The translations under genes and the position numbers were made by a program. Positions 11,484-34,101 of a stretch of 40,319 nucleotides of DNA are shown piece after piece (the stretch's first letter is position 1; each line of letters starts with the position of its first letter). The notes under the pieces were generated by a model that saw nothing but the letters and a program-made list of their open reading frames with translations, did no database searches and had not been told where the DNA came from. The stretch is from contig SVEA01000111.1 of NCBI GenBank assembly GCA_015057615.1, forward strand, positions 1 to 40,319. The letters are read 5' to 3'. The stretch comes from Lachnospiraceae bacterium. Its GTDB lineage: Bacteria > Bacillota > Clostridia > Lachnospirales > Lachnospiraceae.

Positions 11484-11562
11484 AATAATAACCATGCCTT
11501 TCTTGACTACCTGCGAACTTTTAGCCGCAGGCCTGGTATTTGCAAAACGAATTAATTCGCTT
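11484..11562 (-). promoter_or_regulatory. L leader, copy B (upstream of amino-acid permease)
   Basis: Minus strand: a palindrome CGAATTAATTCG (11548-11559), then TTTGCAAATACCA, then a perfect CCTGCG...CGCAGG stem, then GTAGTCAAGAAAGG, and the ATG 13 bases after AAAGG. Closely related blocks precede the genes at 27175, 33065 and 14674. The stem is kept while the loop varies, so it probably acts as RNA. Confidence 0.7.
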
Positions 11563-13517: not shown

Positions 13518-13709
13518 GCTGGCAAAATACAAGACGTGCGAGTGCGCATCCTTAGCGGAGCGTTATTTGTATAGGACGTAATTTCCTATACGGATTAAGG
13601 TGTCAAAAGCACCGAAGGTGATATTCTGGTACAAAATATTGATGTGTAAGCTCGCTTACTAAGCAATATCTTGTATCAGAATAAGTGCTACGCACCTTTT
13701 GACACCTTA
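13518..13709. repeat. R-type palindromic element, copy R13 with flanking modules
   Basis: The core is TAAGGTGTCAAAAG (13596-13609) pairing perfectly with CTTTTGACACCTTA (13696-13709). An inner partial stem (ATATTCTGGTACAAAATATTG against CAATATCTTGTATCAGAATA) and a tip hairpin extend it. Upstream is GTATAGGA...TCCTATAC (about 13569-13591), which also occurs inside R22. The stretch 13518-13550 is a near copy, in reverse, of about 19686-19719. The region fills the gap between the binding-protein gene and the zinc-ribbon gene and shows no coding frame. Confidence 0.65.
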
Positions 13710-13727
13710 CTCCTATACGATGAAAAA

Positions 13728-17297: not shown

Positions 17298-17315
17298 TTC
17301 ATTAAGAAATAAAAT

Positions 17316-17481
17316 GATAGGGGTTTCATACGTCATAGAAAAGCATGAATATAAATAGGATTGCATATATATTCAGATTGGCTAAGATCGGCTGACGATA
17401 GTAAAAGAAGGAAGGCAGCCAAATGAATATATGCGATCCTATTCAGATTAAAATCTTAAAATGACGTATGACTCTCCTATC
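17316..17481 (+). promoter_or_regulatory. 166-base palindromic 5' leader of the chemotaxis receptor gene
   Basis: The outer arms are 17316-17336 and 17461-17481, sharing CATACGTCAT/ATGACGTATG (10 perfect pairs) and GATAGG/CCTATC. The inner arms are 17354-17383 and 17417-17443, sharing AATAGGAT/ATCCTATT, GCATATATATTC/GAATATATGC and TTGGCT/AGCC. The apical loop is about 33 bases and purine-rich. The whole leader could fold into one rod, ending 28 bases before the ATG and close to the ribosome site. I see no match to c-di-GMP-I or -II riboswitch cores and no terminator. It may be a new leader RNA or an inserted palindromic element. Confidence 0.6.
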
Positions 17482-17509
17482 ACAAAAAAACTACAAAGGA
17501 GAAATAGAC

Positions 17510-19622: not shown

Positions 19623-19770
19623 ATTGAATAGGAAAGTTCGTCCTATTCAATAAAAAATGCTCCATGCGAACATAGTTCGCATTGGGATGACGCACTCGCA
19701 CGTATTGTATTTTGCCAGCGATGCTGGCCGCGCTCGGCGCTAGAGTTTTGCAAGCGAAACTCTTTCTTGT
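19623..19770. repeat. cluster of hairpins, including one arm of a 33-bp inverted repeat
   Basis: In order: ATTGAATAGGA/TCCTATTCAAT (about 19623-19651); ATGCGAAC-ATA-GTTCGCAT inside 19660-19692; GCCAGC/GCTGGC near 19714-19728; and GAGTTT/AAACTC near 19743-19763. Block 19660-19692 is identical over 33 bases, in reverse complement, to 22263-22295. The next ~33 bases recur, in reverse, at 13518-13550. No gene is present. From 19800 to 20076 I see only a minus-strand Lys/Ser-rich frame of about 70 codons with an internal stop, possibly a decayed gene. Confidence 0.65.
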
Positions 19771-22104: not shown

Positions 22105-22423
22105 AATATTGATTCGATGGTCAAAAGCCTTCCTAACAAATCGTCTTCATCAATTTGTACAAAACAGGAAAAAACTTAAGTAATAGCAAACAATATTTTA
22201 CTGCCGCAGGCAGATAAATACCTTACGAATACATGTTTCAAGTATTCGTTACGTGCTGAGTACGTCATCCCAATGCGAACTATGTTCGCATGGAGGTTTT
22301 TTGTCGCATAGGACGCAATTTCCTATACGATAAAATATGTTTCCTATTACTTATCAATGCATAAATTGTGCAAATTGATGAAGTTCGTTTGATAAATCGG
22401 CTTTTGACCCTCAAATCAATATT
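22105..22423. repeat. R-type long palindromic element, copy R22
   Basis: This 319-base element is self-complementary through most of its length. Outer stem: AATATTGATT/AATCAATATT. Next: GGTCAAAAGCC/GGCTTTTGACC. Then the box CCTAACAAATCGTC opposite a looser strand. Then CTTCATCAATTTG/CAAATTGATGAAG, and an inner AAGTAATAG.../...CTATTACTT stem. The tip contains GAATAC/GTATTC hairpins, the 33-base block 22263-22295 with ATGCGAAC/GTTCGCAT, and ATAGGA/TCCTAT. It lies between divergent genes. Confidence 0.75.
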
Positions 22424-27175: not shown

Positions 27176-27240
27176 AATAATAACTATGCCCTTTCTTAAC
27201 TACCTGCAAACTTTGTGCCGCAGGCGTGGTATTTGCAAAG
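27176..27240 (-). promoter_or_regulatory. L leader, copy A (upstream of the ferric-type permease)
   Basis: Minus strand: TTTGCAAATACCA, a CCTGCG...TGCAGG stem (one G-U pair where copy B has G-C), GTAGTTAAGAAAGGG, then ATG. It is nearly identical to copy B although the downstream genes are unrelated in sequence. The palindrome seen in copies B and C is missing. Confidence 0.7.
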
Positions 27241-28985: not shown

Positions 28986-29282
28986 ATGATATGATTAGCC
29001 GCAAAAACCTTCTTAACAAATCGTCTTAATTAATTGCACAAATCAAGGTAAAATTCAAGTAATAGGAATTTTAATTCACAACTGTTTGAAGTCGTTGGCA
29101 CTTAGACCATGTATTTTGTGGTCTTATGTACCACTACGTACTTCAATCCAAGTACTGCGTTTTTTGCAGTACTTTGGGAGCAATGTGTTGCGAATAAAAT
29201 TTTTTCATATTCCGTGTCAACACATATATTATGCAAATTGACGAAGTCGAATTTATAAATTGGCTTTTGTCGTTCATATCAT
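28986..29282. repeat. R-type long palindromic element, copy R29
   Basis: A 297-base element. Outer stem ATGATATGA/TCATATCAT, then a GCAAAAACC strand opposite GGCTTTTGTC, then the box TTAACAAATCGTC, then an inner strand AAGTAATAGGAATTTTAATTC against a complementary block near 29175-29210. The tip has GTACTTCAATCCAAGTAC hairpins. The outer stem sequence differs completely from R22 and R33 but pairs within the copy. It ends 8 bases before the stop of the response-regulator gene. Confidence 0.75.
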
Positions 29283-29289
29283 GATATGG

Positions 29290-33065: not shown

Positions 33066-33144
33066 AGAAACAACCATGCCTTTCCCAGCTACCTGCAAAC
33101 TTTTGGACGCAGGCTCAAAGTTGCAAAGCGAATTAATTCGCTTG
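33066..33144 (-). promoter_or_regulatory. L leader, copy C (upstream of the sensor binding protein)
   Basis: Minus strand: perfect palindrome GCGAATTAATTCGC (33128-33141), TTTGCAA, CCTGCG...TGCAGG stem, then a divergent GTAGCTGGGAAAGGC, with AAAGG 13 bases before the ATG. It shares palindrome, stem and spacing with copy B. Confidence 0.7.
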
Positions 33145-33297
33145 GTGAAAAATCATAATTTTCCATACTAGCTCCCTCTCCAAAAAAAGATGATCTCCAC
33201 TTTCTGTAGAAATCATCTCGTCTTGTCCCATGTACATATGACTTTCTTACACGTATATCATATGTATCCACAGAGCTTTCTATTTCTGTCCATAATT

Positions 33298-33560
33298 TAA
33301 GAACCAAAAACCTTCCTAATAAATCGTCTTCGTAAATTTGTACAGAGCAGAGAAAATCCAAGTAATAGAAAACATTTAATGCGCAACTGTTTGAAGTCGT
33401 TGGCACGTACCATTACGTACTTCAATCCAAGTATTGCGTTCTTTGCAATGCTTTGTGCAATCACGTGTTGCAAATGAAATAGGTTTTCCTGTTACTTATC
33501 AATATATAAATTGTGCAAATTGACGAAGTTAACTTTATAAACTGGCTTCTGATCTTCTTA
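33298..33560. repeat. R-type long palindromic element, copy R33
   Basis: A 263-base element. Outer stem TAAGAA/TTCTTA, then an AACC strand opposite GGCTTCTG, box CCTAATAAATCGTC, CGTAAATTTG opposite CAAATTGACG, then AAGTAATAGAAAAC with a matching block near 33480-33512. The tip shares TGTTTGAAGTCGTTGGCAC and ACTTCAATCCAAGTA with R29. It lies upstream of the sensor operon. Confidence 0.75.
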
Positions 33561-33921
33561 TCTGTTAGTTATAGTATAGCTCCATTTCAGAGGGTTTTCA
33601 AATTATTTTATTTTTATGCTACCTATAATTATTGGTAATTTATTGTTTCGTTCCCTTTTTCTTATTGGGACCGATACTTCCCAACTTTATTTTCCGAAGC
33701 CTGTATTTTCTAACCCTTTTTTACCGGCATCCCAGTCATTTTCCCTACCAGCTCGACCCAGCGGTCTTCTTATATATTCTTTGCAATTATTATACCAATG
33801 CTTCCGTTTCGTTGAATGCTATTTTATACATGTTAATGGTATCGTCATTTTAGCATTGCATTCCAGCCCCTGTGATTAATCGTCTTTGGTAATTTTCTGC
33901 TATATAGAAACCATGCTATCA
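33561..33921. other. AT-rich gap without a supported gene
   Basis: Two plus-strand frames of 73-87 codons exist here, but they lack ribosome sites, have no recognisable motifs and look like chance. The gap separates the sensor operon (starting left) from galT (ending right). Confidence 0.6.
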
Positions 33922-34012
33922 AGAAGGTCAGTAACCTTCCTTCACACACCGATTGAAAAGACGAATAGCCTGTCTTTCAAACCGTACATTACAGAAAGAT
34001 TACTGACCTTCT
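33922..34012 (-). terminator. nested hairpin structure downstream of galT
   Basis: AGAAGGTCAGTAA (33922-33934) pairs perfectly over 13 bases with TTACTGACCTTCT (34000-34012). Inside it, TTGAAAAGAC pairs with GTCTTTCAA (about 33953-33980). It is 90 bases downstream of the galT stop. There is no U-run, so it may protect the 3' end rather than terminate. Confidence 0.55.
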
Positions 34013-34101
34013 TTGTATTATTTACAATAAATTAAATTCGAATTTATATCATCCAACGGTTGATTTACGATGCGATCTTATTATTGCCAAAAAAGCCGAA
34101 A

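Follow-up and report, generated by a model that had tools for sequence, protein, structure and literature searches.

A 40,319-nucleotide contig of a Lachnospiraceae bacterium, the whole of which is called the window here, contains three near-perfect palindromes whose outermost stems differ in sequence yet each pair with their own partner, and the question raised by this locus is whether such palindromes are kept as a fold, regenerate their own arms, or are simply insertions of a mobile element. The palindromes R22 (22105-22423), R29 (28986-29282), and R33 (33298-33560) are present where the initial annotation placed them, and the boxes they were said to share fall in the same order on alignment, with the three-copy families D1 and D4 showing 73-85% identity to the reference copy. 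Folded as single-stranded DNA, R22 reached −71.8 kcal/mol, compared to −27.1 ± 3.6 for 100 shuffles, and R29 folded as RNA reached −78.0, compared to −54.1 ± 5.1 for 200 shuffles; R33 was folded without a shuffle comparison. The placement of all copies at the 5′ side of minus-strand operons holds in part, the gene settings differing among the three: R22 lies between divergent genes, while R33 and R29 lie between tandem minus-strand genes, R29 immediately following the stop of its upstream gene. No reading frame of 100 amino acids or more was found inside R22 or R29, and a mechanical frame of 105 amino acids (33089-33406) overlaps R33. The window also contains two more long inverted repeats of other sequences (17315-17482 and 33921-34013) and a 50-base direct repeat (CCTTTCTTGACTACCTGCGAAC...) at 11497-11546, 27190-27239, and 33079-33128, near the starts of minus-strand frames.

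R22, R29, and R33 proved to be members of one interspersed element, termed family A. In the genome that contains the window (G000; 4,073,244 bases, or 4.07 Mb, in 215 contigs, of which the window is contig 93), searches with R22, R29, and R33, in which 40 of 568, 429, and 390 candidates, respectively, were scored, listed at least 56, 43, and 42 matches. An arm pattern, GCAAATTGANGAAGNNNANTTTNTNA, with up to two mismatches matched the genome 284 times, compared to zero for the reversed control. In 1,228,858 bases sampled, 112 family A elements were counted (approximately 91 per Mb), and the total is estimated at about 370 copies in the 4.07-Mb genome, provided that the sample, which consists of longer contigs, is fair. 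Genes in this 1.229-Mb sample were called by a simple longest-frame script, and 11 of the 112 elements were omitted for want of two flanking gene calls; 63 of 101 elements span the middle of the model, including R22 and R33 with their altered cores. Of 44 elements placed in a 440-kb portion sampled earlier, 43 were intergenic and one was within a called gene.

As a class, MITEs are short, gene-less, and intergenic, with inverted termini, target duplications, and a high copy number. The aligned family A copies have GAT...GNCAAAAGCC as one terminus and GGCTTTTG...ATC as the opposite one, and a 19-base pattern of these inverted terminal repeats was found 81 times, compared to zero matches for the reversed control. 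Target-site duplications, scored with tolerance for one or two mismatches, were detected in 23 of 34 testable copies, compared to 8.5% of shuffled left-right pairs; the 34 were drawn from 75 aligned copies, 41 being left out because both termini were not recognized. The duplications are AT-rich and varied in sequence, and 16 of the 23 are 7 bp long. Because these direct repeats stand directly outside the termini, the family A palindromes are insertions. Consistent with a short element that carries no coding gene, 99 of 119 terminus pairs were spaced 50-350 bases apart, and no long gene was seen inside family A elements. The pairs under 400 bases (99 of 119), which pool loci of this genome and its relatives, fall into size classes near 51, 73, 96, 125, 271, and 298 bases, suggesting repeated loss of the hairpin middle. 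Nineteen of these 99 are shorter than 200 bases and keep the termini without the core described below; thus, the core may be dispensable for movement. The 20 of 119 pairs longer than 400 bases, found with up to three mismatches, were taken as chance on inspection of reading-frame lengths alone. Four queries of phage and plasmid collections gave zero matches; in viral contigs, one core pattern gave no match and another gave two (L366 and L367 of IMG/VR), both of which hold the element and flanks of locus L035 of the present genome, so this locus may sit in a prophage-like region.

The termini allow the three palindromes to be delimited anew. R29 is a complete family A element on the plus strand (28993-29280, by alignment, termini, and fold) between two copies of a target duplication, ATGATAT (28986-28992 and 29281-29287); its core, a three-way junction at 29074-29195 (plus strand; covariance model R1, 76.6 bits), has a long hairpin in place of a GNRA-capped one. 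R33 (33300-33562, plus strand) is a family A element with an eroded left terminus, an approximate start, and no target duplication recognized, and its core (33379-33475, plus strand; covariance model, 47.8 bits) is without the conserved hairpin. R22 (22111-22417, plus strand; by alignment, termini, core model, and fold), with AATATT duplicated at 22105-22110 and 22418-22423, is a hybrid in which both A arms surround a piece of another, multi-hairpin repeat, repeat B, in place of the A core (22201-22334, plus strand). Elsewhere in the genome, this piece has other neighbors, and with such an interior, R22 as a single fixed family from end to end is ruled out.

With these boundaries, the outermost stems, AATATTGATT in R22, ATGATATGA in R29, and TAAGAA in R33, which had been read as copy-specific arms, turn out not to be extra arms at all. 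In R22, AATATT is a 6-base target duplication that equals its own reverse complement and so leaves pairing bases on either side of the element; in R29, the stem consists of the 7-bp duplication ATGATAT plus the terminus, and the TAAGAA/TTCTTA pair of R33, at its eroded left end, looks accidental. Over 34 copies, 3.21 of the 7 positions beyond the termini were paired, compared to 3.03 ± 0.19 when flanks were taken across different copies, and 6 or 7 positions were paired in only four copies, R22 among them. The argument that random insertion cannot give flanks that pair therefore fails, as self-complementary duplications such as AATATT give them. Regeneration of the arms by the element is likewise not needed: target duplications and chance account for the flank pairing, and self-made arms beyond the termini are rejected.

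Of the two possibilities offered by the initial annotation, selection for structure is the one that gained support, and the evidence for it came from comparison between species, not from R22, R29, and R33 themselves. The R29 DNA query matched 10 of 80 genomes (own genome included). All 10 belong to the 34 genomes of the same genus, none of the 46 genomes from other genera being matched, and the best-conserved part of these matches was the tip, query positions 100-173. A core pattern matched 19 stretches in the GTDB collection, with titles naming Anaerocolumna, Herbinix, Lachnoclostridium, Lachnospiraceae bacterium, and Clostridiales bacterium. We aligned 22 whole elements, one of 23 (L152, shortened) being dropped, four others being re-delimited by hand, and three aligned copies of the own genome being left out as lacking the hairpin. 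The 77 pairs counted comprise 60 predicted pairs and 17 terminal-helix pairs added by hand; 2 of 62 predicted pairs, 62-218 (weak) and 131-137 (G-U in all 22), were dropped. In this alignment, 95.1% of cells were paired, compared to 89.5% after shuffling and 32-42% in slid registers. Double changes occurred in 32 of the 77 pairs, compared to 14.1 for shuffles, and in 108 cells, compared to 28.7, with none of 500 shuffles as high. Sequence itself is conserved in the GNCAAAAG portion of the termini and in an inner repeat around AATTTGCAC; the stem that runs from this inner repeat to the tip shows compensatory change, and at the tip the loops are kept. The data show that the inner stem and tip are kept between species as a fold rather than as a sequence.

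The tip forms a three-way-junction core of 96 columns with near-invariant unpaired bases and one GNRA-capped hairpin. A covariance model of the core was trained on the 22 relatives together with two family C copies of the own genome (family C is described below), and the search of Lachnospiraceae relatives that the initial annotation had proposed was run with it, at E values up to 0.001 per genome and without a reversed control. Of 392 genomes searched in the order, 47 (own genome included) had the core, and these represent 23 of 173 genera, all within the family of the window; in the window itself, R29 and R33 were matched and R22 was not. Compensatory changes were again above shuffles. Among 57 distinct sequences of 65 aligned rows, fitted to a model that leans to pairing, 32 of 33 core pairs had double changes, double-change cells numbered 539, compared to 145.6 for shuffles (0 of 500 as high), and 95.5% of cells were paired, compared to 67.2%. 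Further pair types did not exceed the shuffles (83 compared to 80.6; 136 of 500 as high). The side branch is capped by GAAA, GAGA, GGGA, GCGA, GGAA, GCAA, or GTAA, so that 50 of 51 four-base loops are GNRA, the sole exception being a weak reverse match included in the count (L177, minus strand, 23.7 bits). Loops of more than four bases occur in five rows, and one further row has a loop of a single base. At L319:992-1367, two cores stand head to head in a near-palindrome of approximately 370 bases with convergent genes on either side.

When the window and 16 loci were compared to all 4,227 families of Rfam 15, no match reached the gathering score. Group II intron models are part of Rfam, and the catalytic domains of such introns gave no gathering match in the same window and loci. 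The L177 element had no Rfam match at an E value of 5 or less, and at a low threshold, six loci gave three weak matches to microRNA families (E values of 0.08 to 0.44), each under half the gathering score.

Between genera, the arms vary and yet each pairs with itself, and the same core is found between unrelated arms in family C of the own genome and in genomes G345, G405, and G417. Family C palindromes, of which 59 were found in 1.229 Mb (for example, at L122:6926, L116:4820, and L117:19119), have GTTACTGTTCACA as their termini and share the family A core, which here has other stems. In G405, the distance from AGG to CCT is 209 bases in 9 of 15 elements, the termini are TTAGGNNTTTGCGAAAC, and 8 of the 15 are flanked by exact duplications of 9-13 bp, with offsets of up to three bases permitted, compared to 0.6% of shuffled pairs; an automatic duplication search in the mixed genera was not used, because element ends there had been guessed from the fold. 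The terminus sequences of the vehicles include GATNNGNGTGTCAAAAGCC besides those of family C and G405. That one core is common to vehicles with different ends and duplication lengths suggests different mobilizing enzymes and fits a cargo better than a terminus. Because the core outlives a full swap of arms and termini between genera, simple insertion of one fixed-sequence MITE, the outcome that was to overturn the structural reading, is insufficient by itself across genera, even though insertion as such is shown.

Vehicles also combine. At L158, an A arm contains a family C copy, with ACAAATTT on either side of it; this C-in-A element (L158:1185-1662) is immediately followed by a broken UPF0236 (ISLre2-type) fragment below the family cutoff. 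Repeat B consists of several hairpins in succession (GTAGCAAAGAGTTTGCC ... CCTATACGACAAAA); it was found 32 times in 1.229 Mb and, besides its piece in R22, lies in the window at 19623-19765 (minus strand) and 13563-13593; by eye, several B copies directly adjoin terminator-like hairpins. The end hairpin of one B repeat contains a short palindrome with an A-type terminus (GATTAAGGTGTCAAAAGC) at 13593-13712 (coordinates by eye), with CTATACG duplicated at 13586-13592 and 13713-13719. The same end-hairpin motif was hit twice by A-type elements, at 13586-13719 of the window and at L124:15867-16171, both with duplication of CTATACG, a pattern suggestive of a nested hot spot.

A search for the mobilizing enzyme yielded ten matches to UPF0236, Transposase_mut, and DDE_Tnp_1 in the own genome, none of them bracketed by two A or C termini, and the ISLre2-, IS256-, and DDE_Tnp_1-type transposases of this genome were rejected as partners on this ground; single A termini or A/C elements occur near the transposase loci L157, L158, L182, and L185. 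In Anaerocolumna, 19 of 30 loci had a terminus pair 72-273 bases apart and 11 had one terminus only. No transposase was found among eight frames beside inverted core pairs in other genera (L316, L317, L318, L320, and L331); matches were to ThiF, RelB, and DegV, and five frames were matchless.

Within the genome of the window, covariation has another character. Among 75 copies, double complementary changes numbered 213, compared to 133 expected from column frequencies, and they were concentrated on a few pairs that resemble subfamily markers; they were thus probably inherited with the source copies rather than made copy by copy. Single-side changes were balanced (350 G-U and 338 A-C). Since the double changes look like subfamily markers and A-C is as frequent as G-U, resident copies seem not to be individually held to the fold.

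A folded RNA tolerates G-U pairs and tolerates A-C less, and the ratio of the two can therefore point to the strand on which a fold matters. In the 22-sequence alignment, inner pairs read on the R29 strand had 58 G-U and 12 A-C cells (16 versus 4 columns, P = 0.012), while the terminal helix had 17 and 13, so the strand preference is confined to the inner part. When the structure was folded on the other strand, a procedure that favors the opposite result, an inner excess persisted by cells (31 versus 12) and was not significant by columns (12 versus 5, P = 0.14). Three results are at odds with the preference: arms aligned without structure gave A-C versus G-U counts of 217 versus 114 in the own genome, 84 versus 61 in relatives, and 33 versus 29 in family C; single-side changes in the own genome are balanced, as noted above; and the 57-row core alignment gave 68 G-U versus 29 A-C cells, yet only 9 versus 8 columns. 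The GNRA loop is a firmer sign of RNA on the R29 strand than are the G-U and A-C counts.

Orientation in the chromosome is uneven in this genome. Judged by the GC skew of the stretch, 82 of 101 elements are oriented against the leading strand. Between tandem leading-strand genes, 58 of 65 elements have this same orientation, as do 20 of 29 in convergent or divergent gene gaps, and 3 of 7 between lagging-strand tandem genes are opposite to the genes; at these counts, effects of replication and transcription cannot be separated. The orientation was against the leading strand in 25 of the 29 best-scoring and 21 of the 30 other long elements (59 in all), with no clear trend by copy age. No bias was detected in the small samples from Anaerocolumna (3 of 10 tandem cases opposite) or other genera (7 of 19), so the bias may be specific to this genome. 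Orientation as proof of a replication mechanism was rejected, given that transcription is not separable and the bias is not seen elsewhere.

We consider it rather probable that these palindromes are MITE-like, non-autonomous DNA elements that carry, as cargo, a shared RNA-like core selected for its structure. A transposase encoded elsewhere would move the elements, recognizing their ends as duplex DNA, while the core would act as a folded single strand, more likely RNA than single-stranded DNA, in those copies that are still spreading; it might, for example, bind a protein that helps to mobilize, protect, or tolerate the element. Resident copies would afterwards decay free of constraint. The core would be a cargo module, since vehicles whose ends are unrelated carry it and since it can be lost or, as R22 shows, exchanged for other sequence. 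On an unlikely reading, replication would lie with the core: it would be a structured RNA moving through the family either by being copied as RNA or by taking over new DNA vehicles, and the palindromic arms and termini would serve as exchangeable packaging around it.

Other routes of spread would account for parts of these data. The folded strand might itself move as a single-stranded DNA transposon, with the core as the structure recognized by a recombinase, much as hairpins are recognized by the enzymes of IS200/IS605 elements and of integron attC sites. The strand-specific fold would suit such a mechanism, as would the 82 of 101 elements lying against the leading strand, which is expected if the replication strand matters. 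IS200/IS605 elements, however, insert without target duplication, whereas clean duplications of 7 bp and of 9-13 bp are present here, the conserved termini show no strand preference, and the orientation argument is blunted by the unseparated effects of replication and transcription in this genome and by the small samples without bias from Anaerocolumna (3 of 10) and other genera (7 of 19); we regard single-strand transposition as unlikely. Still less likely is a SINE-like retroposon, whose core would bind a reverse transcriptase and whose new copies would be made from RNA: the RNA-like core with its GNRA loop and the variable duplication length in G405 (9 to 13 bp) speak for it, but it accommodates poorly the conserved inverted termini, the dominant 7-bp duplication of family A, and the short core-less copies that also have termini.

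The palindromes could also serve the host as mRNA hairpins that are retained, like ERIC, NEMIS, or BIME, for an effect on message stability or termination, which would agree with the intergenic location of 43 of 44 elements in the 440-kb sample, with the shared orientation of 58 of 65 among tandem leading-strand genes, and with one G345 copy that fills the gap between two convergent genes. We find this improbable, as in this genome the strand that seems to be constrained is antisense, decay is even across individual copies, the sites are target-duplicated insertions, and other genera lack the orientation bias. Finally, an ordinary MITE might owe its complementary arms to template switching within the palindrome, with no selection on folding; complementary change would then be explained without function, and the absence of a strand preference among single changes in the own genome would be expected. 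Such switching leaves unexplained the near-invariant unpaired bases, the GNRA sequence of 50 of 51 four-base loops, and the branched tip kept between genera, and as a full account it is very improbable.

Compared with known systems, the structure-selected cargo element that we favor shares with bacterial MITEs its shortness, lack of a gene, inverted termini, target duplications, high copy number, and intergenic location, and differs in the covarying branched core that is common to vehicles with unrelated termini. No prior description of the element was found in a literature coverage that excludes most subscription journals and supplementary tables, and the portions of main text available from PMC8040213 and PMC8632094 make no mention of Lachnospiraceae; the former reports 250 palindromic candidate RNAs, and none of the four pictured in the available part resembles a family A element (PMC8040213). 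The mobile or repeat sequence candidates described in the available part of another survey include MRSC-65-2, which occurs in multiple copies as one long stem bearing a UYCCGG repeat and is found in diverse phyla (PMC11109978). Like it, the present element is a multi-copy, structured, covarying motif, MRSC-65-2 being thought selfish with its RNA or DNA form undecided (PMC11109978); as far as that account extends, the element described here differs by its branched core with a GNRA loop and by its restriction, among the genomes searched, to the family of the window.

In size and dispersal, the elements resemble bcr1-bcr18 of the Bacillus cereus group, which are interspersed, mobile-like repeats of 100-400 bp whose mobility is tied to a TTTAT motif (PMC6542083), bcr1 having a predicted common stem structure (PMC2267715). 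On the portions of those accounts available, the present repeats differ in host group, in their varied AT-rich duplications, and in a core common to several vehicles; a few of the 7-mers duplicated by family A contain TTTAT and most do not. ERIC, YPAL, and NEMIS are likewise hairpin-forming palindromic repeats, ERIC being predicted to form one long stem-loop, and a branched core common to different repeat families is not described for them in the available part of that account (PMC2267715). In the parts of the accounts compared, folding repeats have so far been described family by family, whereas here one fold with a GNRA-capped branch persists across at least 23 genera while arms, termini, and duplication length change. 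The role that a structured nucleic acid plays in a mobile element devoid of genes thereby becomes accessible to study, and the covariance model provides a means of annotating otherwise unexplained palindromes, of which this genome has hundreds. Kept across many related genera and matching no family in the RNA library searched, the folded, RNA-like core that many of the longer copies carry is a novel type of cargo aboard a well-known type of mobile element.
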